The notes beneath the pieces are model-generated. The model saw nothing but the letters and a program-made list of their open reading frames with translations, had not been told where the DNA came from and did not search any database. Below, piece by piece: positions 1,901 through 21,341 of a stretch of 64,000 nucleotides of DNA (position 1 is its first letter; each line of letters begins with the position of its first letter). Source of the stretch: Polytrichum commune (taxonomy: Eukaryota; Streptophyta; Polytrichopsida; Polytrichales; Polytrichaceae); assembly GCA_950295325.1 (NCBI GenBank), contig OX485807.1, positions 930,501 through 994,500 on the forward strand, read 5' to 3'. Both the position numbers and the translations under genes were made by a program.

Positions 1901-3367
1901 TTACCACACCGACCCCCACATCGAACGTCCCGGCGTAGTCCCTCTCCAAGTGCAGGTTACCCAGGTGGTCCTCCAGGAGGAGCACCTCCAGGGCCCCCAG
2001 GAGGGGGAGGAAGTGATGACACAGATGACAATGAGGACGATGAACCAGTAATAGAATCCAGGAGACGAAGGTCAACAAGGAGGGCATCAAGACGGAGGAA
2101 GGAAGAGACAACTCCGACCATGGCACCTTGGCCATGGCCAGGATACTACCCACCAGGACCCCCACCAGCACCAATAGCTCCTCCAGCGAGGGTCAGTCCT
2201 AGTAAGTCAGGGATCAAGCTACCACTTCCGATATATGACCCCAAATCGGACCCAGACTCACACGTCCGTACTTTCAAAAAATGGGCATATACAATGGGGG
2301 AGACGGACGATGAGGCATTGATTAATTTATTCACATATTCCTTGCGGGAGAATGTGTCAGAGTGGAGTGAAAATTATGCCGATAGTCACCCACATTGTAC
2401 TTTGGATCAGCTGTTGGATGCATTTGCTAGGAGGTATAGAAAGGTGCAGACAGACATGCAGGCATATATGGCGTTGAGGGCCTTAAAAATGAGAGACACA
2501 GAGGACGTGGAAGCATATTACGAACGGTTGATCAAACTAGCGAATTGCCTGACGTACCGTCCAGATGATGAATGGTTAAACACATGTTTTAGGGCAGGCC
2601 TACCAGATTACCTACGAGTAGCCACAACTGGTATGGCCAAGAAAACATTGATCAGTTCAAAAGAATCGGCAATGGCTTGTGAAGAAAGTGTTTTTGACGC
2701 AAAAGGAAATCGAATTCCTTGGAGGGTGGGGGTGCAACCAGTAGAAACTACCAGTTCGGGTAATACGAGCCAACACATGAGACAAAAAGATTTGGATCCG
2801 TTGTGCTCATGTTGTGGTGGAAGAGGGCATAAAGCGGAAAATTGTTGGGGTAACCCGCAAAGTGCAAACTACCGACCCAACATGAAGAGGCCTTCACAAG
2901 CTACCGTACATGCTGTGGGGACAGAACAAGTCAGGCCTAGGTACAACCAGGACGACCAAAACAGGAATAGGTGGCCACCACCCAGACCAATTAATAGACC
3001 AAAATTTTGTTTCATATGTGGTAGTGTTGAACATTTAGCATTCCAATGTCCGTCCGGAGAGCAAGCTCGCCAACAGTTTGGGCAACACAAACGGACGGAC
3101 CAAGACCAACCATCCCCAAGACCGGACGTGACTATAGCCACTGTGGTTGCTGTAGTAACCAGAAGCAAAGCAAGGTTGGTACCGGAAGAAGTGGCGTTCC
3201 GCGAGAAAGAACCGTTGAAGGGTAAAGGTCACGATGAATGGAGACATGAGGAGGAGTTGAGGCATGGGTGCATCGAGGAGGTCCAACGTCTTCAAGAGTT
3301 GGAAAAACAAGAACTAGCCAAGAAGACGGAGCAAAAACGTGTACGGTTCCAGTTGGACGAAGGATAG
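1901..3367 (+). pseudogene. gag: Gag capsid and nucleocapsid with two CCHC knuckles
   Basis: After a Pro/Gly-rich linker, the capsid-type retrotrans_gag domain lies at about 2220-2690 (SDPDSHVRTFKKWAYTMGET, then the LDAFARRYRKVQTD block). Two canonical CX2CX4HX4C zinc knuckles follow at about 2810-2855 (CSCCGGRGHKAENC) and 3007-3050 (CFICGSVEHLAFQC). These bind genomic RNA in related elements. The tail is Lys/Glu-rich. Reading stops at TAG 3365-3367, and the protease region resumes in the same frame. Gag identification is firm. Whether the TAG is decay or a natural gag/pol suppressor stop cannot be told from one copy, but several similar stops elsewhere favour decay. Confidence 0.9.
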
Positions 3368-4122
3368 CAACATAATTTCTCCACCGAGTGGGCTGGATCA
3401 CCAAACATAAATCCTGACAGTCAAGACCGGCTGGAACCCAATGTGTTGGACACTGTAAACTACGAGGTGGGTGAAGGAGGTCCGGAAAATTTGGATGCAT
3501 CCTTTGCCTTGATTACAAATCAGGTATTGGAAAGTCGGTTCACATTAACCTTAGGTCAATTATTACAGTTAGCACCAGGGTTGAAAGACTTTATCATGAG
3601 GCAAGCTGTCCCATCCTGGATTCCGAAAACAACACCAACTCAGGCGTCCACGACCCCAACCAGCATGGTTGGTGCCATTGCAGTAGACTACACCATGCCA
3701 GTTATCACCATCAAAATTGCAAACAAATATATTTCAGACGTCCTAATCGACGGGGGAGCTGGTGTGAACATCCTCACCGACACTTTGAGGAAACATTTGG
3801 GATTGCCCAAACCAAAAGTAGCCACCTACAACATCAAGATGGCTGATCAGAGCACCACAATGCCAGTGGGACTATTGGAGAACATCAATATTGAAGTGGA
3901 AGGTATGCCTTATCAAGTCACATTTTCTGTAATGAGTTTGGCATCACATAACGATACCCCAGATTACTCCATATTGTTGGGTAGACCGTGGTTGGTAAAT
4001 GCCAAGGTGGTACATGATTGGGAAGGTGACCAGCTAGTAATCCAAGGACTGATGGGGAGTAGACGTGTGAAGGTGAATCGGAAACTACCAGGGGACACCC
4101 CCCGGCCTCAAGTCCTACTCAT
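3368..4122 (+). pseudogene. Retropepsin-like aspartic protease, cut by transposon insertion
   Basis: The active-site motif is VLIDGGAGVNILTD at about 3741-3782, a DGGAG variant of the D[ST]G triad seen in plant retropepsin-like proteins. The flap-side motif ILLGRPWL follows at about 3973-3996. The frame is the same as gag. The last codons before the insertion are CTA CTC AT. The transposon enters within codon ATG, and its target duplication TCAT spans 4119-4122. The apparent stop after LYSLN lies in transposon sequence and is not native to the protease. Confidence 0.88.
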
Positions 4123-4150
4123 AACACTATATTCGTTAAATTGAGACTTT
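4123..4150 (+). repeat. Left terminal inverted repeat of the 16.6-kb transposon
   Basis: 28 bp identical to the reverse complement of 20694-20721. TTGAGAC at 4141-4147 recurs just inside at about 4164-4170. The direct repeat TCAT lies immediately outside at 4119-4122. Confidence 0.95.
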
Positions 4151-4259
4151 TTGGGCATTTTGAGACATTCACATAAATAAGAACAAGGATAAATGGAACA
4201 CATATTGGAGAAAGTTGTAAGATGCGAACACTTTGAAGCAGGTGTTTAGACCAAGAACC

Positions 4260-4550
4260 CCATAAATAACTCATATTTGTGATGGTTTAGGGTGGGCAAT
4301 CCAAATCTTAGACCACATTTAAGGGGAAACCTTAAAACATTCATATTATTGCACACAAAATATTAGAGCTTGTATGAATATGGTTTAGGTAGGGCAATCC
4401 AAACCATAGATCTTATTGAAGGGTTAATATGTTAACCAATATAATATTGCATACAAAATATTCCAAACTCATATTTGTGATGGTTTAGGTAGGGCAATCC
4501 AAACCTTAGACCATATGGAAGGGGAAATCATGTCTAACTTGTATTATTGC
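4260..4550 (+). repeat. Left subterminal repeats of the transposon, three units of about 99 bp
   Basis: The block TGGTTTAGG(T/G)(A/T)GGGCAATCCAAA recurs at about 4283, 4381 and 4481, each followed by a diverged AGACC...AAGGGG segment. Subterminal repeats of this kind are commonly transposase-binding sites. That role is inferred here. Confidence 0.75.
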
Positions 4551-4708
4551 AAAAAAAAAACATACAAAGTGTGGCATGTAAAATGCATATCATGCTAACA
4601 CCACACATGCATTGGATAGTGCGACCCAAAATGTTCTTGCCTATGGCCCAAAACCCTACGCCTACTATGGCCTATCTAGCCTCGGAGACTACCTCTTTTT
4701 CTTTTGCT

Positions 4709-5495
4709 TCATTTTCTTTTGCTTTTTTTTTCTTTTGCCTCTTTTTCTTTTGCCTCTTTTTCTTTTGCTGCAGCTTCTTTTGCTCGCATTGCTTCAACAT
4801 TCCTGAAAATCTCCGCCCCGCGACTATAGCCATTCTTGGGGTGAACGCCATCAATAACACATTTTGTATTCCGTCGGCCGCCCGAATTATACGACGAAGA
4901 ATTCGAATACGATGAAGTGGACTGTCTTGCATTTCTGGTCATGGAGTAGAAACGCTCCAACTCGATGGACGCACTAGACCGCATAGGTTTACGGGTGGGA
5001 GCAACCTGCAACGCGTCAACGCAAGAACACATGTGTTAGTTTAGGGAGGAAGACCCAAACGTGTCACACATTCATTTTTTAAGTGCAAAATGATTGTAAT
5101 GCGCGGATAACCATGTTTTTTTTGGGGGGGGGGGGGTTCACCTTGTCACCAGGGGCGTTCCCGTCGGAGTTGGCGAGGAGGGGCAAGGCATCCCGCAAAG
5201 GAATAGGAAGGGTTCCACTCTTCGTAGGCCGAGCGTCCATCCGCAGCCGCCGTTGAGGTGTACTACTGCCGCCGGGCCGAGAGGGGGATGTCCGGACGCA
5301 TTTGCGATTTATGCCTTTGAGCGGTGACGGGGACGCAGATCGCCGGAAGATTTGCTTGGGTGGGGGGCTATCGACGACGCCGGCGTCAAGAGGCTCCTTG
5401 GAGTAGTCGATGGTTGACGCGGCGTCGTAAACGGTCTCGTAGAAGAAGCTCCCCAAGTCTGACTCGCTGACGACGTCAATCGAGGGCTCCAAACG
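4709..5495 (-). CDS. Two terminal exons of the cargo region, Lys/Glu-rich C-terminus
   Basis: Two open segments on the minus strand are joined by clean splice sites. Exon 5495-5142 starts after ...TGGCTCCAG and ends GGTGACAAG|GTGAAC. The intron is 5141-5006. The next exon starts at 5005 after GCGTTGCAG and runs to about 4709. Both junctions are phase 0. The first exon is Ser/Pro/Arg-rich and the second ends in repeated AKEKEAKEK, probably helical and charged. It could be the 3' end of the phosphatase gene just upstream, but the TGA at 5639 intervenes and I found no donor that joins them in phase. It may be a separate small gene. No known domain. Confidence 0.5.
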
Positions 5496-5638
5496 CTGGA
5501 GCCAAAATTGGAACAAAACAAAACCCAAGGAAAAGGGGGGAGATAGAGCGCGTGAAAATCAAGATACATATGAAGCGTAAATTACACAAAATGGGTAGGC
5601 GCATATACACACACACACATACAAACACACGTACTGTC

Positions 5639-6451
5639 TCAAATGAGCTTGTTAAATTTCGCGTGAGATAACAACTCTCTGTACAAATGGTCTCGTGGAT
5701 CCAAGTATCTCTCGCCTATGGGATTATTCCTAACAAAATTGTTTACGGGAAGTCCGCTTCCCCAGAGCGCCTGGAGGTATTTACTAAGGTCTAACAAAAA
5801 TCGGTCCCGGACCTTCTCGACCGTCCACGTAGGGCACACTATGAAGTTGGCCGTCGGGTTCAACATGTTCTTTGCGGCGCTGTCGTCCACCATGAGCGCG
5901 TTCTCGCGGGTGGGGCGGACGTCGTAGGGGACGCCTATCAAGGACGGTCGCTGGTCCCAAAAAATGGGCTTCAAGACCTTGAGGTATTGGGGGGAAGCGG
6001 GGTTGTTTGGTTTTTTGACGACTTTGCCGTCCTGTGTGTACAATATTCTACAGGCTTCCTGTGCTAGGACCATGCAGGGGGGCTCGATGCCCTTGAAGAT
6101 GAACTCCACGACCGCATTGGTGTTCTCGGCCGTCATGGAGCTCCACACGACCACCCACCATCGTTGTTGGGCGATCTGGAGGAAGGTCCGAAGCCACGGG
6201 CGGAGGTGAACTAGCTTGCTCTTTATGAACGTGGGCGGCCCGTCGTAATTAGCGTCCTCGGGCTTGCAAAAGGGCACTGTGGGGGCCCTAGGGCAATGAA
6301 CGCACTGCACGAGGACACCGTTCAGGTCTAACACCAGGAATCGTTTCTTCGGCAGCGGGGGCGGGGCGGGTAAAACTGGGGGCGCCGCCGCGCTGCCCTC
6401 TCCGCTCCTTGGGGAAGAGCGTCGGGGAGCCGCTACGCTATGCTCCGAGCC
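5639..6451 (-). CDS. FCP1/TIM50-like HAD phosphatase domain, cargo gene
   Basis: The exon opens at 6451 after an acceptor (TATCCGCAG) in phase 0 and runs to TGA 5641-5639, about 270 codons. A Ser/Pro/Ala-rich leader precedes the HAD motif I, FLVLDLNGVL, a DxNGV variant of DxDGT. Motif II VVVWSSM and the motif III/IV block LMVDDSAAKNML follow, in the spacing of FCP1-homology/TIM50-like plant proteins. These are phosphatases of the NLI-interacting factor family that usually act on phosphoserine. The first Asp is kept but the second is Asn, so catalysis is uncertain. The phase-0 acceptor at 6451 is compatible with direct splicing from the exon ending at 6954, which would fuse this domain to the ParB-like protein. 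Confidence 0.7.
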   Translation of the reverse strand, partial: GSEHSVAAPRRSSPRSGEGSAAAPPVLPAPPPLPKKRFLVLDLNGVLVQCVHCPRAPTVPFCKPEDANYDGPPTFIKSKLVHLRPWLRTFLQIAQQRWWVVVWSSMTAENTNAVVEFIFKGIEPPCMVLAQEACRILYTQDGKVVKKPNNPASPQYLKVLKPIFWDQRPSLIGVPYDVRPTRENALMVDDSAAKNMLNPTANFIVCPTWTVEKVRDRFLLDLSKYLQALWGSGLPVNNFVRNNPIGERYLDPRDHLYRELLSHAKFNKLI

Positions 6452-6721
6452 CTGCGGATACGAGCGAGAGAAAACGGGGGCGACTTATGTCATGCTATGT
6501 CCAAACGAAGCATTATGGAAACGAGCGTTCTCGGTGCAAACACAAAAGCATTTGATTCATTTTGGAGGGGGTGCAACAAGGGATACAAGGGATACAAGAG
6601 CATACAAAATACATTCAAACACAATATACAAGTATATAGGAGTCAAAAATGGTGATTATATTATATACAATGCTCTATGTACATCTTGATTGGGGGAGCC
6701 GCGTTGAACGATGCATTCAAA

Positions 6722-9700
6722 CTAGCCTACTTCTACATCTAGAAAAAATTGAAGAGACGGGCCGCCGTGATGAAGACTTCGTTGCAAAGCCGGGGGTAGG
6801 TGGACGAACGAATGGTCGCTGGGGGTGACGAAGGGCGCGAGTGCCGGGGGGGGCCTAAGTTCGTCCTAGCTAGGGGACACGACCAAGGCAAGAAGTCAAA
6901 GACCCAGGAAGTTTGGGTCGGCCGACCCAAACTGAGTGGGGTCAGTGCATTACCTCGCCTTGGTCGTGCCTTGACGACGTTGATGCCGGCATCGCGTGCG
7001 CTGCCCCACCTCTGTCACCGCCGCCTCCGACGACGCCGTCAGCCGCAACCTGCTCCTGCAAAGGCTGACTGTCAGGCCTTTGTCCCAACCCAACCTCCGC
7101 ATGCGCATCATGCATTGGTTCATCGACTGGGTTAGGAGTAGAGGTATCACCAGGCCCTTGCGGGCCTTCAACATCTAGCATAGGCTCGTCGACCGGGGTC
7201 TGATGGGGGACGGGGTTTGGGTCGGCCGACCCAAACCCTGCTGCTTGGCGAGGGTCGCTCTGCGACGCTGCAACGTCGGCACTGTTTGGGTCGGACGACC
7301 CAAACATGTGGGGGTCGTCCCGCTGGTGGTGTGGGGGCAAGAGGATGGGAGGCCGGAGCGGGGGGGGGGGGGGTGCCAACGAGCTGGACGCTCCGGGGAC
7401 GCGCCAAAGGTTTGGATCATCCACCTGCTGCACAGGCGCGTAAGGACGGGCGTGCGGCTGCAGCAAATCCGCGAAGCTGAAGGAATGCTCCAACGCCGGC
7501 CGCGGGCGGATATCCTGTGGAGGGAAGCCTGCGGGCAAGTGAGGGAATGAACTCGGGGGAGCCATCACCAATCCCTGCGCCAGCATGCCCTGGATCACTT
7601 GCGTGATGAGGTCCGCTTGGGACGGAGTTTGGGACATCGCCCTTTGCCGCTCCTGCTCCAACAGGAGAGCCCTCAACTCCGCGACTTCGTTGCGGACAGA
7701 GGGTTCCTCGGCGGCAGCCCTCTGCAGTCGCACACGCTGCTCCTCGTCTCGGAGCATTTTTGCGTTCGCCTCCTCCACGGTGAGGACCTCCGGTTTCACC
7801 CTCACATTCCCGGCGAACGCTCTGGGGGAGGCAGGATCAGACCTCAGCTTCTTGGCGAGTTCCATGTCGTCCTCGTCCTCGGAGCTTATTGCGATCGTCT
7901 CCTCCACCGCATAGTCCCCGTACAGCTTCTTCCCCTTCATCCTTCTACGCTCCCTGAAGGTGGCCGTCGCGTCCCTCGAGTACATATCCTTGGCGTCGTC
8001 CACCGTCAACGCGGGCACCAGCCTGCTCTGCGGCGTGGCAGGCCGCATGGCCTTCTTCCGCTGAGGGGCCTCGGATTCTTGAGTGAATCCTGTTGCCCCT
8101 TCCTCCACCTCCCCCTCCACTTTCTCTGCTTCCTCCTCCGCCTCCTCCTCGTCTTCCTCCCCCTCCTCCCCAACCCTGCCACCTGCTCCCATAGACGGAT
8201 TGCCCGGATGCAACCCGATGAGCGGCTCTGGCAATTGAACGGGGGCCCGCATGGCGAATTCACCCGGGTTGATTCGCCTCGCAATATCCAAAGGATTCTC
8301 GCCCCCCTCGACGATCTCTTCGACGTAGGATCCGGGTATCCAGTCGAGGATGTCCATTCTCTTGGCCAGCGCCTTTTGGGTCCTGTAGAATTGAACATCG
8401 GCATCCTCTACATAGGAGTAGATGTTCAACCCAGACATCTGCACAATCAAAATCAATACTATTAGTAACACCAAATGAACATATAATGGAAAATGACTTC
8501 CAAACAAAATAAGAATAGTTAGTTTGGGTCGCTCGACCCAAACTATGCATGGCCCTAGTTTGGGTCGCTCGACCCAAACTGTGCATGCCCCTAGTTTGGG
8601 TCGTTCGACCCAAACCGAACGTATAGGGACTTCTGGGTTTTCTGGTTACCATGGCTGCAAAAATCGGTTTGGACCCCCCGAAAACGTTGAAGATGCAGTC
8701 CCCTCTCTTCGTGAGGGTCCTCATCATCCGCAGGTAGAACTCCATGCGCAGCTCATCCGCGGGGTAGTTGGCGTACTTCGCCTCGTCATATAAGCTCCTG
8801 CTGGTACCCAACCCTTCTTGGACTTGGAAGAGCTTTTCCATCCTGGCTATGGGATGGTTTGGCACCTTAAGCAGCTCAGCTTTGTACACGAAGTACAAAC
8901 ACAGCACGTTGACGATCTTCGTCTTCTTGTCTTTCAGCGTGCTGTACGCCCCCTCCGCCGGTGCAGCAACGTAGTGAGATTTCGAGACGGCATACTCCGG
9001 CTGCAATTTGCGCACGATCTCGTAAACCTGCTCTGCCCTTCTGTCCTCGACAATCCAGAGCCAGACGTCGACCTCCCTGAATTTGGGGCTGGCGTAGTCC
9101 ACGAACTTCGACAAGAAAGGATCGTAAAAAGGGGTGCTCATAGTCCCCTCGAATGAGGCTCCAGGGATGTTCCTGAAGTCTATCATTCCGAAGGGGAAGC
9201 GGTCCCCGGCTCTAGTCCTGATCGCCTTCCTTGACTCAGAACCCGGCCAACCCTGGATCCTGAGAGGTTCGACAGTGACCATGTTGAATTGCGCATCGCC
9301 TTCGAAACTGACGATCTTCTTCTCCTTTATGAAGTTGGAGAAGGCCCGCACTGAGTGTTCGGGAAGCGCCCGGTTCCTCCCCCCCTTCACGAGCTTGGAT
9401 CTGAGGAAGTCGTCTCCCGCCTCCCTCATGAGTGCCGCCATGGACGCACTGGTAAACTTATATTCGGCTTTGAAGGCCCTCCAGTGCGCCTCGTCGACCT
9501 CTCCGTCCACGATGAGCTTCTTCTCTGGCACAAGCTTGTGCAGCTCCTGGACGATGGTCGTCTTCTTCTTCCTGTTCTCCGTCCATTCCTTCATTGTGTA
9601 GCATGAAGGGACGAAGATCTTGGGTTTGGTGAAGACGATCTTAGGGTGGACCCAGCATCTCTTCGCCGTCGTCTCCACGTGTAGGATGTGGGACGCCGCT

Positions 9701-11570
9701 TTTCCCATTTCTGTCTCGGAGAGACCTTGAAGCGCTCTAAAGAACTCCCTCACCAGAGGCTTCATTTGCTTGAAGCGCGTAGTCTGGTTGAAGAGCATGC
9801 CGGTGTCGGGGTCCATGAGGTCCCCCGTCTCGTGTTTTTCAAAAACACTCTTCCATCTTGCCCATACGGAATCGGACGCTGTGATCAAATAGATTTCTCC
9901 TCTCAGCTCGTTATACTTTTTCTGCTTGTGGCTAGCATTGTCGATCGATGAGAATTTATTGATCATTTGATATTTGAAGTCCTGCACAGGAAGACATTAG
10001 CACATGTTAGACAACACATAATGGAAAAACAAATGCAACAGCAGTTTGGGTCGAACGACCCAAACTATGAACCTGGCGAAAACATCTTAACAATTTCAGA
10101 GTTTGGGTCGACCGACCCAAACTATGAACCTGGGGACAATATCAAAATAATTTCAGAGTTTGGGTCGACCGACCCAAACTATCAACCTGGCGATGACAAC
10201 AAAACAATGTAGGAGTTTGGGTCGATCGACCCAAACATACTCACCTCCCATTTGGGGTTCTTGTCTTTAGCATTCTCCCTTTCCTTGGGAGGCCTTCCAT
10301 AAAACTCCCACACCTCCCTCGAGGCCATGATGTTTCTGATCCACGATGCCTGATAGGCCCTCTTTTTGTTCCCCATGTTGAAGAACCTGGAGATGTCGCT
10401 GAGGACCGTCTCGTTGTCCGACCAAACCACCAAAGCCTTCCAAACTTTTAGCTTCTCCTTCTGGTTGTTCGGGTCGTCCCACTCGGTCATCAGCTGGATT
10501 TTTTTCGAGGCCTCCACACTGTGCTGCCCGTCAATCAGCCAGAAGTCTCCTTTAGAGATTGCCGGCCACATCTCAGGCGTCGGCATTATTTTCAGCCCTT
10601 GTGGCATGACAACAATTGTCTGCCTGTCGTCCTTGAACTGCCCGCCCAAGATTTGAGCGACCATCCAGTCGACGTAGGCGTCCTCCTTGGCTCGGACGCA
10701 CTTCTCTGGTGGCGCAAGGTGGCACTGCGCAATGTTGACCTCGAATTTGAAGTCCCTGCCCATGAAGAAGCAGTGCAGGCATTTTGTCTCGAAGTTGTTG
10801 TTTATTTTTTGTATTTCGCCTGCATCCACCTCTTGGCCAGGCTTCGGCATCCGGAGCTCCGGGGAAACAGGCTCGTCAGTCATCCCCGATGACTCTCTTC
10901 CCCTCTTGGAAGGGGTCGTCTGACGGCTTCCTGATGGCGTTGGCGTCTCGCTGTCAGCCGGCGTTGTTGTAGTGCTCGTCCGTCTCGAGTCTGCAGGGAC
11001 CGCCCGCGGTTTCCTCACAGTTTGTGGTCTTGAGGACCCTGCGCCTTCTTCCGTCGTTGCCTTCCGCCTCACAGGCTACTGCGTCTTGGGTTTGCTTTGC
11101 AGCGCCTTGTTGAGAACCGTGATAGCCTGTTTTAACTTCGTGAACCTGCTCGCAACCTTCGTGTTCGTTACACTACCATCTATGAATATGGCCTCCGGTT
11201 TTATGGTTTCAGGGTCGACGCAAGTCTCCTTGGCGTACAGGGGGTCGAAGGGCTCGGAGAACTGGTGCATGAACATGTGGACGTTCTGCACGGCGGAGTT
11301 CTCCAGTATCACGTCTACGTAGTCCCCGAGAGACTGGACGGACGCAACCTCCCATCCCGTCAGCGTTGCCCAGGTGTGCTGCTCGTGGGTCCCCACCTTC
11401 ACCACGAATAGCAGCTTGAACATGGATGCCTTCACCACCTGAACGGACCATGCCAAAACGACGCCATCTTTTGGGACGTAAGAATCGTCCTGTGGAGTTT
11501 CATACTCCTGCCAAAGGTGGTCTGGCGCGAGCATGAACCACCTTTCACCTGGTCTCTTTTTAGGGGCCAT
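6722..11570 (-). CDS. Large multi-exon cargo gene with ParB-like DGQHS motif
   Basis: Exons on the minus strand, all joined in phase 0: 11570-10245, 9981-8650, 8438-6954 and, less surely, 6865-6722 ending at TAG. The introns 10244-9982, 8649-8439 and 6953-6866 have GT-AG ends. ATG 11570 follows a TTGCAG acceptor, so the start codon opens exon 2. The first coding exon holds FWLIDGQHSVEASKKI, similar to the ParB/sulfiredoxin-fold D-G-Q-H signature, followed by SRFFNMGNKKRAYQ. The second exon has no domain I recognise. The third is acidic and Pro-rich with a possible coiled coil. An in-frame TAG at 11078-11076 (after SKPKTQ) interrupts exon one, so this copy may be broken. An alternative last junction is 6954 to 6451, giving a fusion with the HAD phosphatase. 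Confidence 0.6.
6912..6931. repeat. 20-bp palindrome, single copy (centre GC)
   Basis: Perfect TTTGGGTCG-GC-CGACCCAAA, located in the proposed last intron of the cargo gene just after the exon ending at 6954. Confidence 0.95.
7216..7304. repeat. Two 20-bp palindromes inside a coding exon
   Basis: Perfect copies lie at 7216-7235 (centre GC) and 7285-7304 (centre GA), 69 bp apart. In the minus-strand cargo reading frame they translate as FGSADPN and FGSSDPN, so they sit in frame in the acidic/Pro-rich region. Confidence 0.93.
8523..8614. repeat. Palindrome array, 36-bp period, 3 copies, intronic
   Basis: Perfect copies start at 8523, 8559 and 8595 with centres CT, CT and TT. The unit includes an ATGCATG(G/C)CCC spacer. 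All lie within the 211-bp intron 8439-8649. Confidence 0.95.
10045..10235. repeat. Palindrome array, 57-bp period, 4 copies, intronic
   Basis: Perfect copies start at 10045, 10102, 10159 and 10216 with centres AA, AC, AC and AT, exactly 57 bp apart. All are inside the 263-bp intron 9982-10244, and the last ends 9 bp from the splice donor. Confidence 0.95.
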
Positions 11571-12657
11571 CTGCAATCCAAGAAATCGAAACTGTGAGTT
11601 TCGGTCGATCGACCCAAAGTATTGCAATGTGCATTTAACATTTGGAGGATTGACCCAAACATTTACTTAATTTTCAAAGTCGTTTTAAAAGATCTTTTAG
11701 ATTTTAAAGTGTGGTTTAGGTGGTCACCCTGTAATGTTTGGGTCGAGCGACCCAAACATGATGAGGCTGCAAATTTAGGTATCTCAACACATTCATTTCA
11801 GACTGCAATGTTTGGGTCGAACGACCCAAACAATTACTTAATTTTGGAAGTTCTTTTATATTTTACAATGTGGTTTAGTTCTTCTCCCTGTAATGTTTGG
11901 GTCGAGCGACCCAAATATGTTAGGCTGCAAATTTAGGTAGCTCAACCCATTCATTTCAGACTGCAATGTTTGGGTCGAACGACCCAAACAATTACTTAAT
12001 TTTCAAATTTCTCTTTTATTTTACAATGTGCTTTAGTTCTTCTCCCTGTAATGTTTGGGTCGACCGACCGAAACATGTTAGGTTGCAAATTTAGGTAGCT
12101 CAACCCAATCATTTCAGACTGCAATGTTTGGGTCGAACGACCCAAACATTCACTTAATTTTCAAAGTTCTTTTATATTTTACAATGTGGTTTAGTTCTTC
12201 TCCCTGTAATGTTTGGGTCGAGCGACCCAAACATGTTAGGCTGCAAATTTAGGTACCTCAACCCAGTCATTTCAGTCTGCAATGTTTGGGTCGAACGACC
12301 CAAACATTTACTTAATTTTTGAAGTTCTTTTATATTTTACAATGTGGTTTAGTTCTTCTCCCTGTAATGTTTGGGTCGAGCGACCCAAACATAATGAGGC
12401 TCCAATGTTTGGGTCGCTCGACCCAAACAAGAGGCTGCAATGTTTGGGTCGAACGACCCAAACATTTAGTTCATTTTAGGCTGCAATTCAAATATTTATT
12501 ATATTTTAATATGAGTTTGGGTCGTCTCCCCAAACTACTGTGTTTCCAGATGCATGTTTAATGCTTGGGCAACATATACAATGCTTATGCATTGTATATG
12601 TAACAGGAACCTAAAGGGAATGATGCAAATTGTGTGCACTGATGCAAATTGCTTACC
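11571..12657 (-). other. Probable 5'-UTR intron of the cargo gene, packed with palindromes
   Basis: A donor AAGACAAG|GTAAGC at 12657/12656 and the acceptor TTGCAG at 11571 define a 1,086-bp intron directly before ATG 11570. Sequence upstream of the donor on the minus strand has stops in all frames, as expected for a 5' UTR exon. The intron is AT-rich except for palindrome copies at 11599-12534. Confidence 0.55.
11599..12534. repeat. Palindrome array, composite 158-bp period, 10 perfect plus 4 imperfect copies
   Basis: Perfect copies start at 11737, 11811, 11896, 11969, 12127, 12212, 12285, 12370, 12408 and 12443. Single-mismatch copies lie at 11599 and 12054, and degraded ones at 11641 and 12516. 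Spacing alternates about 73 and 85 bp, and centres alternate AA and AG in most units (AC in the 12054 copy), so the amplified unit is 158 bp with two palindromes. The spacers share ATTTAGGTA(G/C)CTCAACCCA and TGTGGTTTAGTTCTTCTCCCTG motifs. Confidence 0.95.
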
Positions 12658-13316
12658 TTGTCTTTCAAACTCTTGAAAGCTGCTCTCACAATCTGCTTCT
12701 TACAACCAGACTCAGAAACTCTGTTGTGGCACTAAAGAACAACTCTCACAAAGATCTCAGAAACACAATGAATCTCTCAAGCACCCTAAAACTTTCTCAC
12801 AAACCCCCTGATTCTTGCAAACTCAGGCCTAATTTGAAAGACCTCTACCTTTCTATCACACTTGACCGTGCTCACTTCTACTCAACCTAAAATCACTCCA
12901 TGCATGAATTTTACAAAACAAGTAAGGAGTTCAACACAATAAACCGCTCCGAACTCACTCAAAGCTAACACTCTGGACCAAGAAGAGAGAATAAGAAGAG
13001 GAAGACAATAACACGAGGAATAGAATGAGAGAAGAGGAGGAGAAGCATCAGAGAGGAGGAGAGGAATGAAGGAGAAAGAAGAATGAAGGGAAGCGGCGCG
13101 ACCAAGACAAAAGCAAAAGGTGCGAGAGGAAGCGCTTGGCGCGGCGCTATGGAAAGCGGCGGCGGCGTTTCCAAGAGCGGCGCTTGGCGCGGAGGAAGAG
13201 AGGAAGAAAAAGAGAGAAAGAAAAAAGAGGAGGGGAGAGAAGGAGAGAGCGGAAGGGGTCACCCTAAACCCTCGAATCCGGGCCATTAGATTGCGCCGGG
13301 CCCATCAACGGCTCAG
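12658..13316 (-). other. Probable transcription start region of the cargo gene
   Basis: I see no protein gene here. The minus strand just before the donor at 12657 lacks an open frame and looks like 5' UTR. The 12990-13260 stretch is purine-rich (GAGGA/GAAAGA runs) on the plus strand. Open frames on both strands there are low-complexity and are not supported. Confidence 0.4.
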
Positions 13317-13385
13317 AAGCCTCGCGGGCCAACACCTTGCCAGGTGTCGACACCTCCTTGGTTTAGGTGGTTGCCCGCGAGGCTT
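13317..13385. repeat. Short inverted repeat with 13-bp GC-rich arms
   Basis: Arms AAGCCTCGCGGGC (13317-13329) and GCCCGCGAGGCTT (13373-13385) are perfect inverted copies around a 43-bp loop that itself contains GGTGTCGACACC. A role is not evident. Confidence 0.7.
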
Positions 13386-14040
13386 GTGGTGTTGACACCT
13401 GCCACCCTAGGGAGATTGCCTTCCTGGTTGTCCTTGCCCCTAGGTGCGGGACATAGGAGGGCCGGCGCCTCTCTTGGCCGCCCGGCCCCGGCCTTCTAAC
13501 CCGCTATTCATTAGCGGCAATTCAATACCAGTCAAAAACCTACGTGGACTAAGGTATTCCACAAAATTAACACCATCACCAACTCATATTTTAATGGTGT
13601 TCAATTGAATGATCACCCGTTGGAATTGATAACATCGTTGAATGTAGCCATTATCGTTTTGGTGTATGAATAATGAAATTTATGGAATCATATGAGAGTG
13701 TTACAAAGTCTAAGAGGAGTAAGTCATAATTATATTGCAATCCACAAAGGCAATTACACGGTGCAATAATATAAATATGGTAACCATTCACATGGTTAAC
13801 AGTTTAGGATTATGTATTGTAATTTATATGATGGTTGTTGGTAGAGGACAATGCTCTAGTCTATAATGGATACCCTAACAAGTAGCATTAGAGTGAACAT
13901 TAATATATGTACTTAGAAGTTCACATTTGAAGTACATGGGAGAAACAAATGATTACAAATGTATCTACTGCAACCCCATGGAGTTCACATATCATATGAA
14001 GTCATTTAAACATTCAGTTTGATGTTTGATGATGCCTGAA

Positions 14041-14068
14041 CCCTAAACCCTAAACCCTAAACCCTAAA
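14041..14068 (+). repeat. Interstitial plant telomere-type tract
   Basis: Four tandem CCCTAAA heptamers followed by a partial fifth. Plant-type telomere unit in C-strand orientation, too short to be a telomere. Confidence 0.85.
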
Positions 14069-14883
14069 CCTTATACAACACAAACCATAACTGGATGGCA
14101 CATAGGTCAAATGACATGGGCCTTGGTGCTTGTAGTTTCCAATACAAATGTATATTGTCATCACAACATCCTAATTCACAAACGTGAAAGATGGATGTGT
14201 GGTTTTTCACGAATGAACGCACTAAAGGAAATAAACGATATTGTGCTCACAAGTAGGTGATACAATATTAACCTATAACCTTGTCACCTGGTAAGAAAAG
14301 CATAAGAACTAGATTATAATGGATAGGATGTTGTTCATGTTAACATGTTATTTGGAATAGTGAAATATTATATATTAATTTAAAGTAGATTTCATGTTGT
14401 GAATGATATGAGGACATACCTTTTGAACTTTGCATGTTTTGCTCACACACATTGGTAGAGTTCAAGGGACTTCACGATAGGTTCAAACATCCTTGGAAGA
14501 TTGAACGTGCCAAATGTCATTTGTGGTTTAGGGTTCCATTAATGACTTCCACATAGGTACTAGGTTATTGTCACACTTGGAGTCTTGAGGATGAAGCAAT
14601 ATTGGGTGCACACATTACAACACAACATATGTTCTTTTAATTAGCAGAAATTGAAAGTTGGCCAAATTATTCAAGTTTGTCATGGCATTAATTATTTGTT
14701 TTCAAAATATAAGTCCTCATGTGAGAGTCTAAATAATAGCATTAACTATTATATTTAGTGACTTTTAGTATATGAAGTTTTATAATACATGCACATCTTT
14801 TGTCAATATATTGTTTGAAATATACCATAATGTTTGACTACAAGTAGAGTAAAACCCCTTAATAGATATAATCTTACATATTG

Positions 14884-15019
14884 TCATAGGGTTATTGGTA
14901 TTTAGTGTATGCGTTCATATGTAGTGTATCAAAACCTTTATATCCTTTTTAGTTATATGATAGTTAGTGTTTGATACACTTAAAACGAACGCATACACTT
15001 CCCATTACTAACCCTATGA
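14884..15019. repeat. Imperfect 136-bp hairpin, possible MITE remnant
   Basis: The outer arms TCATAGGGTTA and TAACCCTATGA pair. The inner blocks AGTGTATGCGTTC and GTGTATCAAA pair with TTTGATACAC and GAACGCATACACT. No clear target duplication was seen. Confidence 0.6.
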
Positions 15020-15641
15020 GAGTAAGTAACATTAAATGTAAACTCAAACACTAAATATCCACTATGGTGATATATGGAAGTTACATATAGGGATTTAGTA
15101 TTAGTAAGGATGTGAGAAAAATATACAACAATGATAAAAGGAGAAAGGAGATGGCAATAGGGAAGGTGGTGGTGTATTCATGTATAAAACTAATTATGAA
15201 AGAGTTGAAGAATAGTGTTGACCAAGTTAGGGTGGTAACAACTTTAAATATATGTTGAATTATTCATTTGGTGGTTGGGGCAACGAAGAGCCAAGCTAAA
15301 TATACATTCTCTATTATTGACAAGAAGCGGGAAATTGAGTCAGAAGGTTTGAATTAACATCCAAAGGAGACCAGGTGGGAAAGGCATCCAAAGAGGATGC
15401 CCAAAGCGGAGGCGGGTAGTATAAAGAGCCCAACCCCCCCAAATGCTGGTTCTTTCTTTCATGTCCCAATCCTGAGATTGCTGCAAGCTCTCTAAGTTGG
15501 AGCTGTAATACACGGTTTGTATACGCTTCCATTCATGAGCAACTAATTACAACAAGCATCTATGAGTTCAGTTGTCCCAAATAGGTTATAAATAGATTAA
15601 TAGAGCATCACCCGAATAAATAGGCGGATTTTGCGGAATTG

Positions 15642-16910
15642 TTTGGGTCGGTCGACCCAAACCCAGCCTTACAGTGTGGGTGCTCTCTGTATTGAGCCAG
15701 AACCCATCCTGCCTCAAGGTTTGGGTCGATCGACCCAAACCCAGCCCTACAGTGTGGGTGCTCACTGTTGTGAGCCTGAACCCATCTTGCCTCATGGTTT
15801 GGGTCGATCGACCCAAACCCAGCCCTACAGTGTGGGTGCTCACTGTTGTGAGCCTGAACCCATCCTGCCTCATGGTTTGGGTCGGTCGACCCAAACCCAG
15901 CCTTACAGTGTGGGTGCTCTCTGTTGTGAGCCTGAACCCATCCTGCCTCATGGTTTGGGTCGATCGACCCAAACCCAGCCCTACAGTGTGGGTGCTCTCT
16001 GTTGTGAGCCTGAACCCATCCTGCCTCATGGTTTGGGTCGATCGACCCAAACCCAGCCCTACAGTGTGGGTGCTCTCTGTTGTGAGCCTGAACCCATCCT
16101 GCCTCATGGTTTGGGTCGATCGACCCAAACCCAGCCCTACAGTGTGGGTGCTCTCTGTTGTGAGCCTGAACCCATCCTGCCTCATGGTTTGGGTCGATCG
16201 ACCCAAACCCAGCCCTACAGTGTGGGTGCTCTCTGTTGTGAGCCTGAACCCATCCTGCCTCATGGTTTGGGTCGATCGACCCAAACCCAACCCTACAGTG
16301 TGGGTGCTCTCTGTTGTGAGCCTGAACCCATCCTGCCTCATGGTTTGGGTCGATCGACCCAAACCCAGCCCTACAGTGTGGGTGCTCACTGTTCTGAACT
16401 TGAACCCATCCTGCCTCATGGTTTGGGTCGGTCGACCCAAACCCAACCTTACAGTGTGGGTGCTCTTTGTTGTGAGCCTGAACCCATCCTGCCTCAAGGT
16501 TTGGGTCGATCGACCCAAACCCAGCCCTACAGTGTGGGTGCTCATTGTTGTGAGCCTGAACCCATCCTGCCTCATGGTTTGGGTCGATCGACCCAAACCT
16601 AGCCCTACACTGTGGGTGCTCACTGTTGTGAGCCTGAACCCATCCTGCAAAAAGGTTTGGGTCGCTCGACCCAAACCCAGCCCTCTAAGTGTGGGTGCTC
16701 CCTGTCGTGACCCAAAACCCATTCTGCCAAAAGGTTTGGGTCGCTCGACCCAAACCCAGCCCCTAAGTGTGGATGCTGTCTGTAGTGAGCCTAAACCCAT
16801 CCTGCCAGAAGGTTTGGGTCGCTCGACCCAAATCCAGCGCCTAAGTGTGGGTGCTCTCTGTATTGAGCCTGAACCCATCCTCCCAAAAGGTTTGGGTCGC
16901 TCGACCCAAA
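15642..16910. repeat. Palindrome array, 78-bp period, 17 copies
   Basis: Seventeen perfect palindromes start at 15642 and then every 78 bp (one step of 79 bp) to 16891. Centres are GT, AT or CT, with CT only in the last four. The spacer reads roughly CCAGCCCTACAGTGTGGGTGCTC...GAACCCATCCTGCCTCATGG. As 78 is divisible by three, long frames stay open on both strands (over 400 codons). These are repeat artefacts. The array lies just upstream of the transposase gene and between the two divergent transcription units. Confidence 0.97.
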
Positions 16911-17124
16911 CCCAGCCTCTAAGTGTGGTTGGGATCTGGGTGCCGGTGTGGCCACTGGCCTTCCGAAACCTTTACAAGCCCAATGGCATAGCAGTCATAT
17001 GAACTTATATGAGCACTGAGTATTTGCAATTTTGTTTATATATGATGGTTTTTTTGTTCTTCGATTTGAACCTACAATTTTTGTGATTTTAAGACAATGT
17101 TCAATGTTCATGTGTGTAGGCAGA

Positions 17125-20100
17125 ATGGATGGGTTTAGTGAAATAGGGGATTGGTCATCTGATGACATGGCCACTTGGCCATCTGCATCTGATGATGACC
17201 TAGACATTGTCGGGGAGGCTACTATGGCTGACAGTGCGGATGAAGATCATTTGGATTTACCTTCGTCTTCCGTACCGCAGTGTCCCATTGTTGAATGTAC
17301 GGGACTTTCAAGGGCTTCGTGGGTGAATTTGGAGGTGATACTTCTTAACGATAGTGGAGTTGTTGTGGCGGAGGGGATTTGCCGTAACACCCATCCGCAA
17401 GATTGCATTGATGAAAACCCGCTTGGCACTGAGGACGTTGGGGTTGTCATATTGGAGTCGGTCGTTCATTCCGAGGTGGATCCCACTCATAGGTTCTCCC
17501 TCCGCAGGTGGCCATTGAGGAATGTCACAATTGATGGAGTTAGCTTGCGTGAACATGAGCAACGACACATGCAAATCGAAAAGGAGGTGCAATCAAACAT
17601 GCGGCCGCGCAAGGGTCAAAGAAAGTACGATACATTGGCACGTCCTGCTCCGTCTGCAACTGATTGTAAACGTCAAAGGTTGCTCGGGGAGGATTCCATT
17701 AGAGAAGTTGCCACAAAGGATTGTTGTGTGCATCGTTGTTGCCAATTGTTTCCAAGGGATAAATTGAAGGTCATCCGCGAAGAAATGTGGCTTGGAGATT
17801 TCCGTCTAAGATCCACAAGAAAACTTGATGTCCATAGGGCGATACATGTGAATGGGACGGGTCGCAAGGTCATCACCATTGAAAGCATAGACGTGTGTTG
17901 TAAGGCATGGTACACCATTCACGGTGTGTCGAAATCGGACTTTTATAGACAAGCTGCTTATGCCAAGGAAGGCCGCCGGTCCCGTCACCATGGTAACGTG
18001 GGTTTAAAGAAGCCTAGGGAAGCAACAAGGCAAGCAACGGCCACTCTAGCAACCATCATTGTCCCTCTTGCCGATGCAATGCCGCACAAAACACGCACAC
18101 TCACAACCGGTGAAAAGGTTGTGGAGAAAGTTCTTCCCACAGGCACAAAATGGAAAGACATATTGTTGGACGTTAATGCAGTTGGCGAGAAGATTGGGTT
18201 GGAGCCAATTTCATTGTCAAAATTGAGTGCAATCAAGAAACAAAACTTTAGCGAATACATTACAAAAAGACGAGGGGACAAATTTGCCAGGTGCTCTAAT
18301 TGCGAGAAGTTGAAGCGCCTCCGGGATGCACACACGATGGGCACCGAGTCATATGCAGCGCATCAATTGAACTATTTCAAGCACGTAAACATGCAAGAGG
18401 CACACCGTAATGATTACTACACAAATAGAGCTTTGTCCATCTCCAGGCCCTTGGAGGTTCTTACGGTCATCCATGACAAAATGGACCATGCCAAAACAGC
18501 CTCCCCATGTTTTGCAAATCGAATCAAGGCCACGGATGGGTTTTTCAAGTTGCCTGTATCGGTTACAGGTGAACTTCGAAACAATGTCATGACATACCCT
18601 AAATGTTGTTGTATTTTATTCCGTGATGTACTGGAGAACATGGATTCCTTCATAATGGTTTATTCATACATAGATGCTAATCACGTTGGGTTGGCATTGC
18701 AGGAATGATTGCACATGGACACGGTGATGTCAAATTTGCTCATTATGCTCTTGATTTGTATCCAGCGGATTCAAACCACACGATAGGATCATTTGCAAGG
18801 CTTTTACGTGATTTAGAGAAACCACCAGCCTATTCTTCAGGATTGTTATTTGAGAACACGGGTTCAACACCTTTATATGAAGCGGTGTTGGATGGAAAAG
18901 ATGTATGCTTGCATTCGTTGCCCGAGCCACCCAATGAACCCGTGATTGCCAAGAAGTTGCCTCCAACTTTGCGTGTCCAATTGGACAATTGTGCCAAGGA
19001 CAATAAAAGCAGATATGTATTTGCATATTGGTCGTTGTTGGTTGCGAAAGGCATTTTCAAGGAGGTTTTTGTGTCCTTCCTATTGGTAGGCCACACGCAC
19101 GATGATATTGATGCATCTTTTGGGCGGTGGAGCATGAAGTTGCGGGAGGAGGATTTCCCTACAATTCCATTATTGATGAAGTCGTACATGGATTTGGAGA
19201 ACGTTCCCGTCATCCCCCATATGATTGAGGAGGTGCCAGACTTCAAGGCATTTATAGAACCTTATATTCGAAGTGGAGCTCACCGATTGATCGGGCATAC
19301 GAAGGCACAACAATTCCGCTTCTATATGCGTGACGATGGTGTCCCGGCCATGCAATACAAGTTGTTGTGCACGTCACAAGACTGGAGCCCGCCGGAGGGT
19401 CTTCTTGTGTGGCGCGTGGATGCGGATGGAAAGACCATGTTACCGGATGGGGAGCCTAGGCCTTGTAAGCCAATAGCCATGAAGAATTTGGAGGATATTT
19501 TGAAAGGTATATCAGGCTTCATACAATATTGGGAGAGTTTGAAAATAGCGGATGTTGGCGGATCATGTTGGCATCGTTATGGGAGTTGGATACATTATTG
19601 GACACGTGTTCGTGCCGCCTTGGCAGACCTCCACCAAGATAGCCCTCATACTTTGAGGCATGGATTTTGGCCACAAACACGAGTCGATGTACAAGCTTCA
19701 GAGCCTAGTCTTTTGGGAAATGGAGAGGTTCGAGAGGAGTTTGATGTGGACGACCATTACGTGGGGCCTGCTAGTAGTCGTCCCCCACCATCTTTCCGCA
19801 TTGCAGTGGATTGTCATGAAGGTTATATGCTCATTTTGCGTCCTGGAGACGAGACATATGCGAAGCCAGTGTGGGTGGCAAGAGCTTTGTCCAATCCCAA
19901 TTTTGTAACTTCCAGCCCTCATTTTCGACAAATACAAGTGGAGTACTATCGACCGACAGCAAGGAATGAAGATGTGATTCGGCATTATACAGGCTGGGAT
20001 ACAAACCCTAACTTTCGGTGGAAGGTGGATTCTGAGCACGGTCCATCTTGGGTAGATACAGATTCCATATTCATAGCATGGAAACCACGGAAACACCATA

Positions 20101-20189
20101 GTGGATCAGTGTCCATCCCTCAAAAGTACATAACTTTTGCAAAAGACAACCTTGCTCGGATTGCAGAAGAAGCAACCCACGTTGAATGA
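17125..20189 (+). CDS. DUF7869-like putative DDD transposase, one intron, intact
   Basis: Exons 17125-18568 and 18703-20189 are joined across a 134-bp GT-AG intron (18569-18702, branch-like TGCTAAT near the 3' end), giving a 976-residue protein. Splicing yields ...LPVSVTG|MIAHGHGD and removes an apparent frame change. Residues 180-320 hold the Cys/His and FYRQAAYAKEGR block typical of this family. The presumed RNase H-fold catalytic Asps are in IHDKMDHAK (D451/D454), QLDNCAKDN (D576) and GHTHDDIDASF (D615/D616/D618). The start at 17125 (MDGFSEIG) directly follows a GTAGGCAG acceptor-like site, so an upstream 5' UTR exon is possible. Being the only intact transposase-like gene between the TIRs, it is the likely mobilising enzyme. 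The DUF7869 assignment is from memory of motifs. Confidence 0.8.
18569..18702 (+). other. Intron in the transposase gene
   Basis: ACAG|GTGAAC donor and TTGGCATTGCAG|GA acceptor, with TGCTAAT 18-24 bp inside the acceptor. It splits codon GGA after its first base and restores phase between the two halves of the gene. Confidence 0.85.
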
Positions 20190-20693
20190 GAAGTTGGTAG
20201 GATTGTGTTAGCATGATTATAGTTTAATACGTAATTATAGCAATATAAATTACACATATGTGTGCTCTTCAAAATTGGGGCAGAGTTTGGGTAGAACTTA
20301 CGAATACTATATTGTTTGGAGTTGGATGAATATCCATTTACTATATTTCAAGCTGCAATTGAAGTTCATCTTATTATTATGCTTGGGACTATATTCTCGA
20401 ATGAAGAAACATGCATTTATTACATGCACTTTGTATGTTGCAATGTCTATATTCTATTGAACATGCTTATAATAGAAATCATTTTATATATATTTTTGGG
20501 TGAAACTTGTTTGAAGTGCTCTACCCAATGTGTTTTTGTTGATGAAGTTGGTGTCGAGTGCTCTACCATATGTGCTTATGTCCGCACATCATAGATTTGG
20601 GATATTAGAACATATAATATAATTGAGATTGTTGACAATATAGTTTCGGGCCTCTTCAAGTTCTTTGATCCATATATTAATTTGAGACTAGAG
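20190..20693 (+). other. 3' flank and right subterminal region of the transposon
   Basis: AT-rich, without a supportable gene. It contains two GAAGT-TGGTGTCGAGTGCTCTACC-like short repeats (about 20514 and 20550) and likely holds the transposase polyadenylation region. Confidence 0.5.
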
Positions 20694-20721
20694 AAAGTCT
20701 CAATTTAACGAATATAGTGTT
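20694..20721 (-). repeat. Right terminal inverted repeat of the 16.6-kb transposon
   Basis: 28 bp identical in reverse complement to 4123-4150, followed by TCAT at 20722-20725. A further TTGAGAC lies just inside at about 20681-20687, in opposite orientation relative to the terminal copy. Confidence 0.95.
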
Positions 20722-20725
20722 TCAT

Positions 20726-21341
20726 GTATGATTGGCAAAATGGGTTGACGGACGAAGAAGAGGACAGATTGTTTGTATCAGAACCAGATTTACTTCCGGT
20801 AGCCACTGTGACTATCCTTGAATTGCCACTACCAGAACATGGCGTGACGGAAGAGGAGTTGGACGTCCAAAGATTGATCGCTGATGAACATGATACTACC
20901 AAAGAACTTGGAAAGAATCATGCTGGTAGCAAATGAGATGCAGATAATCCAAAGAGAAATGTCCAAACCAACAATATTGTGGACCATCACCTCTTAGTTG
21001 GTCATGTTCCATTTGGTCATATCCCAACTGGAAGCCAAGATGACCTGAATACACCGACTGGTACTGTCCCGAATAATGAAGGCATGGACGACTCACTAGA
21101 TGGGGTGTCGCGGCGTTCCACACCTCGTAGCTCAATAGGAGGGGATGTCACTGCAGAAGCAGCCCTTGCCAAACCAGTGAGTGTGGGGCAACCCTTGGAC
21201 GTCCCGCCCAAGGTGGATAAGCCAAAGGATTATCCAGACAACTTCTACCAGTTCACAGAGGGAGATGTACTGGTGGATGAACAACCAGCACGGGAGAAAG
21301 TGAAAGACATGAAGGTGGCTGGTTGGACGTTGCCAGAGTAG
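20726..21341 (+). pseudogene. Protease-RT linker of the Ty3/gypsy polyprotein
   Basis: This segment continues the protease frame exactly: CTC AT from the left flank joins G TAT GAT TGG here, giving LLMYDWQNG. It is acidic, has no catalytic motif and carries two in-frame stops, TGA at 20934-20936 and TAG at 21339-21341. The RT frame continues directly after the second. Such linkers are usual between the protease and RT of plant Ty3 elements. Confidence 0.8.

Follow-up and report, generated by a model that had tools for sequence, protein, structure and literature searches.

In Arabidopsis, VANC proteins are reported to recognize motifs of their own and to strip their own VANDAL elements of DNA methylation. 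The motifs are short and form part of tandemly repeated non-coding DNA, located within introns of element genes and upstream of a further gene. These repeats are quick to expand and to diverge, the motif differs from one VANC protein to another, and the VANC6 motif is also present in an unrelated element, AT9TSD1 (PMC5735166, PMC10398659). Another kind of accessory protein is known from Ectocarpus, where the 21.5-kb Sola1 element Sola1-1_Ec32 carries a ParB-methyltransferase gene opposite the transposase. Such proteins, with green and red algal cases mentioned, were suggested to bind and modify their own transposon; the accessible part of that report, which cites Iyer 2011 and Petroll 2025, names no binding site for them (PMC12477816). 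In the bacterial ParB-methylase Bce_0392, a ParB domain is fused to a DNA adenine methylase, and the activity reported for the protein is non-specific nicking (PMC5512222). Here we describe a 16.6-kb DNA transposon (family A) of Polytrichum commune, located in a stretch of 64,000 nucleotides (assembly GCA_950295325.1, contig OX485807.1, positions 930,501 to 994,500; hereafter the window), and the arrays of a short palindrome that it carries. The best explanation of these arrays, and in our judgement a probable one, is that they are dimer sites read by the element's own ParB-methyltransferase protein for self-recognition.

A scan of the window allowing up to three mismatches gave 40 matches to TTTGGGTCG-NN-CGACCCAAA. 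These include 37 perfect copies, two copies with one mismatch (at 11599 and 12054), and one match with three mismatches at 4611, which was not counted as a site; shuffled window sequence gave a mean of 0.05 matches. The 37 perfect and two single-mismatch palindromes reported in a preliminary description of this DNA were thereby confirmed, and all 39 sites lie within the family A element. The centres named there (AT, GC, AC, GT, AA, TT, AG, CT and GA) are present, and no pyrimidine-purine centre occurs in the window. The arms, described as invariant over 9 bp, had to be extended. The base adjoining the 9-bp arm is G/C in 96% of arms in family A and 94% in a second element, family B, while one base further out the commonest base reaches only 49 and 63%, respectively (276 family A and 66 family B instances with up to three mismatches over 18 arm positions). 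Since this outer base is so well kept though it was no part of copy selection, the arms are 10 bp long and the true site is the 22-bp GTTTGGGTCG-NN-CGACCCAAAC. Of the 54 single arm changes in family A, 18 fall on the 4 CpG bases of the 18 and 15 are CpG-type transitions; CpG is mildly depleted in the window (0.72), and no conclusion on CpG decay of the arms is drawn. The sites, to which no strand is assigned, are grouped as follows.

15642..16910: array of 17 palindromes with a 78-bp period, directly upstream of the transposase gene
11599..12462: 12 palindromes, 11 of them in an array with a 158-bp period, upstream of the left (minus-strand, DGQH) gene
10045..10235: array of 4 palindromes with a 57-bp period, in intron 1 of the left gene
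8523..8614: three palindromes arrayed with a 36-bp period in the second intron of the left gene
6912..7304: three palindromes within exon 4 of the left gene or immediately past it

Thus, 35 of the 39 sites are units of four tandem arrays (periods 78, 158, 57 and 36 bp), and the window copies are therefore not independent events. The two palindromes within the coding frame of exon 4 (7216-7235 and 7285-7304) encode FGS-A/S-DPN. The element and the two genes to which these positions refer are listed below.

4123..20721, no strand: 16.6-kb DNA transposon of family A, bounded by perfect 28-bp inverted repeats; sits in the coding region of a long terminal repeat (LTR) retrotransposon
4123..4150, plus strand: left terminal inverted repeat, a 28-bp perfect match to the right end
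20694..20721, minus strand: right terminal inverted repeat, a 28-bp perfect match to the left end
4119..4122, plus strand: target-site duplication TCAT, left copy
20722..20725, plus strand: target-site duplication TCAT, right copy
17032..20189, plus strand: transposase gene in two overlapping frames; the second matches Pfam DUF7869 (E 8.2e-41), the first has no match
10245..11570, minus strand: left gene, exons 1-2 with the DGQH motif; from the open reading frame (ORF) list, splice sites predicted
9982-10244, minus strand: left gene, intron 1, predicted from splice consensus
8650..9981, minus strand: left gene, exon 3, which ends in GDCIFNVFGGSKPIFAAM, judged by eye to be like methyltransferase motif I
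8439-8649, minus strand: left gene, intron 2, predicted from splice consensus
6942..8438, minus strand: left gene, exon 4, proline- and acid-rich, from the ORF list

The left gene thus comprises four exons on the minus strand, opposite the plus-strand transposase. Its window copy has an in-frame stop at 11076-11078, which is missing from many other copies (open frames near 494 amino acids). A 4-bp target duplication was found in all 11 family A copies examined, the window copy included. Family A ends match the genome 1030 times on the plus strand and 1031 times on the minus strand (up to three mismatches), and we therefore estimate about 1000 copies, shortened and broken ones included. DUF7869 was the only domain found for the transposase, and a literature search on it found no paper. 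A 4-bp target duplication is a feature of the Sola superfamily, to which the element may belong, though 4 bp alone does not define a superfamily.

Nine family A copies were compared, namely the window copy, L001-L003 taken as one (18 kb), and the central 10 kb of each of L010-L016. All have palindromes upstream of both genes and in both introns (intron 2 of L010 and L011 was placed by distance only), with periods and spacers that vary. The exons of the window copy and L010 are 77% identical, and intron 1 minus its palindromes, of which there are four in the window and six in L010, scores 8 between them as compared with 8 ± 4 after shuffling. Weak similarity outside the palindromes of intron 1 was retained between the window and L016 (24 vs 9 ± 4 for shuffled sequence), the window and L012 (18 vs 7 ± 5), and L010 and L016 (21 vs 0 ± 5); for intron 2 the corresponding scores were 8 vs 2 ± 5 (window and L016) and 9 vs 2 ± 3 (window and L012). 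The introns of closer copies are alike. Since spacers differ and palindromes recur, the palindrome persists while much of its surroundings is replaced.

The search of the genome (408 Mb) revealed 9731 perfect copies of the palindrome and none of the reversed pattern; with up to two mismatches the numbers were 13500 and 1. Only 38 of the 9731 perfect copies have pyrimidine-purine centres, all of them CA/TG. About 430 would be expected if the two bases were independent, as derived from the genome counts of copies with a pyrimidine first (2038 on the plus strand, 2053 on the minus strand), and the depletion is thus about 11-fold. The absence of such centres in the window therefore reflects a strong rule, not an absolute one. 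Part of the deficit may be history, because no single change of a central AT gives a pyrimidine-purine step. TA, TG and CA centres do occur in other palindromes of the same genome, so that the rule is particular to the A-type palindrome.

Clusters of sites were placed from the first matches listed per genome search only. Among the matches listed for C1:1-7.86 Mb, 14 clusters were placed. Family B accounts for eight of them, of which the pair at 438 and 463 kb could belong to the same copy; another five fall in family A, and the last is a single site at a distance of 10 kb from a family A end. The restriction of the palindrome to the 16.6-kb transposon, as first described, accordingly holds within the window and fails genome-wide, since family B has the same palindrome. 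Copies unrelated to the transposon, with arms changing as fast as centres, had been proposed as a finding that would refute a protein-binding site. The outcome was partly positive, in that family B has copies outside this transposon, but there too the arms are better kept than their surroundings.

Ten family B copies were examined (L004-L009 and L045-L048), in which the A-type palindrome forms 32-bp arrays. A second palindrome, TGTGCG-TTAA-CGCACA, lies beside the A-type arrays, upstream of one gene, and is mostly arrayed. This second type was found in all ten B copies, in L006 once only, and in none of nine family A copies. Six B copies, those with 87-99% identity to the query sequence, had the A-type palindrome; the other four (83, 81, 73 and 65% identity) lacked it over the 3.1-3.2 kb examined. 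This would be explained most simply if family A's palindrome had been acquired by a younger branch of family B; self-copying of a micro-palindrome may have been its first entry route. In L007, a B gene without notable Pfam match occupies 1505-3728 (minus strand), with A-type palindromes just past the last exon examined.

The positions of the sites bear on the possibility that the palindromes serve transposition, like subterminal repeats, and are bound by the transposase or some other DNA-binding protein that the element encodes. The largest window array (15642-16910) adjoins the transposase gene, and arrays flank genes in both families, as such a role would allow. The sites are not subterminal, however: the nearest element end is 2.8 kb away in the window, and seven window sites lie in introns of the other gene and two within the frame of one of its exons. 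None of the eight B region ORFs scanned matches DUF7869, although family B carries the palindrome. We therefore regard this explanation as unlikely.

The family B gene starts with an exon carrying the motif WDGNHR (L009 59-493). Relatives of this exon were sought in the genome, with 150 of 1187-1280 candidates scored per search, and the upstream DNA of 25 of them, spread over identity, was examined. At 12 of the 25 loci, a perfect palindrome family (arms of at least 8 bp) occurs 3-12 times within 2.3 kb upstream of the exon. Such a family was absent from all 19 chunks of equal size taken from the window beyond the element, and no shuffle gave more than one. Some tandem array was present at 18 of the 25 loci and in 11 of the 19 control chunks. 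Because arraying multiplies whatever a unit happens to contain, the proper comparison is with the probability that one unit holds a palindrome of such arm length, which is at most 0.04 per array and sums to 0.10 over all 12. Among these, L021 was counted for the inverted repeat CAATGAAG, which is not necessarily the site. Imperfect repeated palindromes were detected in four more loci (L022, L023, L033 and L040). The following palindromes were recognized.

L019, L031: GGGGTTTCGG-ta-CCGAAACCCC
L020, L025-L027: GTGTCTCGG-tc-CCGAGACAC
L028: GGTTTCGG-ga-CCGAAACC and GGGTTCGG-ga-CCGAACCC
L036, L038: CCCTCTCGG-aa-CCGAGAGGG
L037: GAGGCCTCGG-at-CCGAGGCCTC
L039: CTGTCGG-at-CCGACAG
L021, L033: GAGTCTCGG-tt, imperfect
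L040: GGGTGCCGT-aa, one mismatch
L022, L023 and family B: TGTGCGTT

Thus, about 10 kinds of palindrome exist, mostly one per protein clade. Site lengths are 16-26 bp and more, and the 2-bp centre is bordered by CGG in most arms. On the protein tree, the 10 palindrome labels (one being 'none') require 10 label changes, where the minimum is 9 and the shuffled mean 16.2, with 0 of 200 shuffles as low, a statistic that is inflated by near copies. The telling point is that the sequence changes while the arraying, the place and the palindromic form stay. L028 contains both forms of one arm change together with one-sided intermediates, that is, a matched change in both arms. A relative assembled from L044, L036 and L042 (17 kb) has 23 and 14 copies of its palindrome upstream of the exon and 17 downstream, 14 of the latter in a predicted intron.

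Two of these palindromes were searched for in the genome. GTGTCTCGG gave 2064 and CCCTCTCGG 997 copies, with none for the reversed controls. Among the matches listed for GTGTCTCGG, all on C1, four of six clusters (10.93, 15.22, 18.38 and 19.86 Mb) either enclose an exon of the matching clade or are found no more than 2 kb from one; the unmatched ones are a cluster with TA centres at 0.47 Mb and one single site at 10.99 Mb. The former, at C1:468608-471946, has a period of about 138 bp and no listed ParB exon. Among the matches listed for CCCTCTCGG, one of two arrays (16.46 Mb) surrounds an exon 90% identical to that of the clade; for the other array (24.59 Mb) and two single sites, no exon was found among the 150 scored. 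Many scored ParB-exon relatives of the L036 clade are located in C4:41-59 Mb.

Three further explanations were considered. A host nuclear factor might bind the palindromes, the elements having captured its site for transcription; one palindrome common to two different element families and the location of sites upstream of genes would both agree with this. About 10 palindromes, mostly one per clade of the element's own protein, count against it, because one factor would favour one site throughout, and we consider a host factor improbable. The preliminary description also offered a self-propagating micro-palindrome of 20-22 bp, spread by hairpin- or repair-based insertion and without a role for the element. 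Copies in introns, upstream regions and a coding exon, and the presence of the palindrome in six B copies next to four more diverged ones lacking it in the 3.1-3.2 kb examined, are what such a unit could produce. A free unit would be expected elsewhere too, however, and 13 of the 14 clusters among the matches listed are in family A or B; the arrays have fixed periods that include the spacers, as from tandem duplication, and other clades have other palindromes. This explanation is not needed, and we judge it very improbable. Finally, that the palindromes act in RNA, as intron or leader hairpins controlling splicing or feeding small-RNA production, is highly improbable in spite of the several arrays in introns, since the largest arrays are upstream of genes and a hairpin cannot form its loop from a 2-base centre unless the innermost pair opens.

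The survey for the nature of the element-encoded protein relied on the exon of family B and its relatives. The fold predicted for the family B/C exon from alignment A1 (15 sequences) has a mean predicted local distance difference test score (pLDDT) of 83.7. Its top 14 structural matches are all ParB, Noc, KorB or PadC, with Z from 8.8 to 6.9; the best covers 94 residues with a root-mean-square deviation of 2.2 angstrom. A serine kinase and sulfiredoxin, which belong to the same superfamily, rank after these 14. G, H and R of the motif (E/D)GNHR are invariant in the 15 sequences, which fits the ParB signature G-x-(H/R)-R. The PHROG ParB-like partition family was matched weakly by six of the 15 exons (best E 0.075), and no ParB match was obtained in Pfam, NCBIfam or PDB sequence searches; no relatives of the exon were confirmed in viral contigs and prokaryote genomes. 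Because of the unmixed list of structural matches and the (E/D)GNHR motif, we assign the exon as ParB-like: its predicted fold resembles the ParB N-domain. The downstream exons of family B, joined manually, match Pfam N6_N4_Mtase (PF01555) over most of the domain (E 5.2e-4), and no match to this region was found in a PDB sequence search. The methyltransferase parts look degenerate. From exon order, we infer that the ParB-like and methyltransferase-like exons form one gene. In family A, exon 3 has no family match, and the DGQH protein gave no notable Pfam, PHROG or PDB sequence match. We infer from its motif that it may be of the same kind as the ParB-type proteins, an assignment to the ParB class that is hypothetical because it relies on a 15-residue alignment and the full-length comparison was null. 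The preliminary description named this protein as a candidate binder of the palindromes, a role that would fit. Copies of the DGQH exon at C3:10616103, C3:10699878 and C3:10783720 have equal scores and stop counts, are about 83.8 kb apart, and look like a tandem segmental duplication.

Several further features were noted in and around the window element. Gag/protease-like and polymerase ORFs of the LTR retrotransposon lie on either side of it (2120-4144 and 20722-24497). Five CCTAAAC units, the plant-type telomere repeat, occur within the transposon at 14035-14070. Near its left end, at 4268-4527, a 98-bp tandem repeat contains the imperfect palindrome-like GGTTTAGGTAGGGCAATCCAAACC, a possible second type of site. 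One additional coding feature was recognized:

5639..6334, minus strand: exon of a NLI-interacting-factor-like (NIF-type) phosphatase within the element (E 6.1e-13)

Taken apart into its components, the explanation we prefer is not equally firm throughout. Symmetric arms around a 2-bp centre, kept amid drift, point to a symmetric dimer, and the palindromes are very probably binding sites of this kind: the arms are fixed while spacers and centres vary, relatives have other palindromes, and L028 shows a matched change. Since a ParB-type domain is encoded beside palindrome arrays, the encoded protein is the first candidate binder, and we think it the likely one. That the effect of this system is anti-silencing is suggested tentatively, by analogy with VANC. 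In the proposed mechanism, the palindromes would be arrayed sites for a symmetric dimer of the protein encoded opposite the transposase, which would combine a ParB-type domain with a degenerate N6/N4 DNA-methyltransferase-like domain. This protein would load on the palindromes that are arrayed upstream of its own genes or lie in their introns, and so distinguish its own element from other DNA; once loaded, it would keep the element expressed, or mark it, against host silencing. Tandem duplication would multiply the sites, spacers would drift, selection would keep the arms, and protein and palindrome would change together as families diverge. A bolder version, a eukaryotic ParB-parS counterpart with nucleotide-switched clamp loading at clade-specific palindromes and spreading that marks the element as self, in which family B captured family A's palindrome and exploits its protein, appears rather doubtful.

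A number of observations weigh against this explanation. With respect to the sites, no convincing palindrome array was found in the DNA examined of nine of the 25 relatives (L017, L018, L024, L029, L030, L032, L034, L035 and L041), and L017, L018, L029 and L030 have tandem arrays without a palindrome. Matched two-arm changes were found in none of 18 family A copies and one of eight family B copies of the A-type palindrome with at least two mismatches; symmetric arm change is thus seen between clades and in L028, and hardly within the A-type. The scan targeted palindromes, so that symmetry is partly by construction. Physical linkage alone would make the palindrome label follow the gene, and co-segregation is expected without binding where sites and gene are on one element. 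With respect to the protein, the best Z, 8.8, is a modest value, and with Foldseek alone the E value was 0.018, sulfiredoxin ranking first. The methyltransferase scores are below the Pfam cut-off in family B (20.5 vs 26.7), reach 12.6 (E 0.14) in relative C and are lacking in family A, and no clear DPPY-type motif was seen by eye in these exons. The family A DGQH region aligned with the A1 profile over 15 residues around the motif (P 0.053), a full-length profile comparison of the family A protein with B/C gave nothing significant, and a structure model of the family A protein (pLDDT 32) was not used. Family A and young family B share one palindrome and have proteins that are not detectably alike. 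Also, the non-specific nicking by Bce_0392 argues against simple specificity in the ParB domain alone. As a separate observation, arrays of about 156-160 bp lie upstream of ParB exons near the L020 clade in L029 (1-2124) and L030 (1128-2181, both in gene orientation) and may hold another kind of site.

Cut-and-paste elements of plants such as En/Spm and Ac have subterminal arrays of short repeats bound by an element protein. The candidate sites described here are likewise short and repeated, and differ in that they precede genes or lie within introns and an exon rather than at the element ends. The parS sites of bacteria are palindromic and present in several copies. Bacterial ParB-parS, Noc and KorB (PDB 7bm8, 7ol9 and 8qa9 among the fold matches) share with our system a ParB N-domain-like fold, here predicted, beside multi-copy palindromic sites; unlike them, the arrays are long and belong to a eukaryotic transposon with no known partition context. 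Bce_0392 differs in that no palindrome arrays are mentioned in the accessible part of its description (PMC5512222).

The accessory ParB-methyltransferase proteins of algal transposons were already known. As in Sola1-1_Ec32, a large DNA transposon carries an accessory gene opposite its transposase, an arrangement found here for family A only, and ParB-like exons of family B and relatives are followed by N4/N6 methyltransferase-like exons in the loci examined. Unlike in the accessible description of Sola1-1_Ec32, candidate sites are seen here as arrays of palindromes that precede the gene and also occur within it, most of them specific to a clade; the methyltransferase-like exons appear degenerate, and the ParB identity of the window family rests on its motif (PMC12477816). 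Literature searches, with subscription papers mostly outside their coverage, returned no report linking palindrome arrays to ParB-methyltransferase transposon proteins. The present analysis suggests joining a ParB-type self-recognition protein with its sites. The genome supplies thousands of candidate sites of about 10 kinds, with candidate proteins beside most of the placed ones. This makes transposon self-recognition directly testable and offers a natural series for how a ParB-type protein could change its DNA specificity.

The available text of PMC5735166 does not contain the word palindrome, and ParB is not mentioned in the VANC text accessible to us (PMC5735166, PMC10398659). Compared with the VANC motifs, which in these sources are shorter and have one orientation, the sites considered here measure 16-26 bp and more, are palindromic and occur next to a ParB-like exon. 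A family-specific motif in tandem non-coding repeats was found in both systems, except in nine of the 25 relatives. The likeness extends to the layout, with arrays placed in the introns of one gene and ahead of a second one, to tandem expansion and to the sharing of a motif with an unrelated element. If our explanation is true, the arrays of P. commune represent a palindrome-based counterpart to the VANC system.

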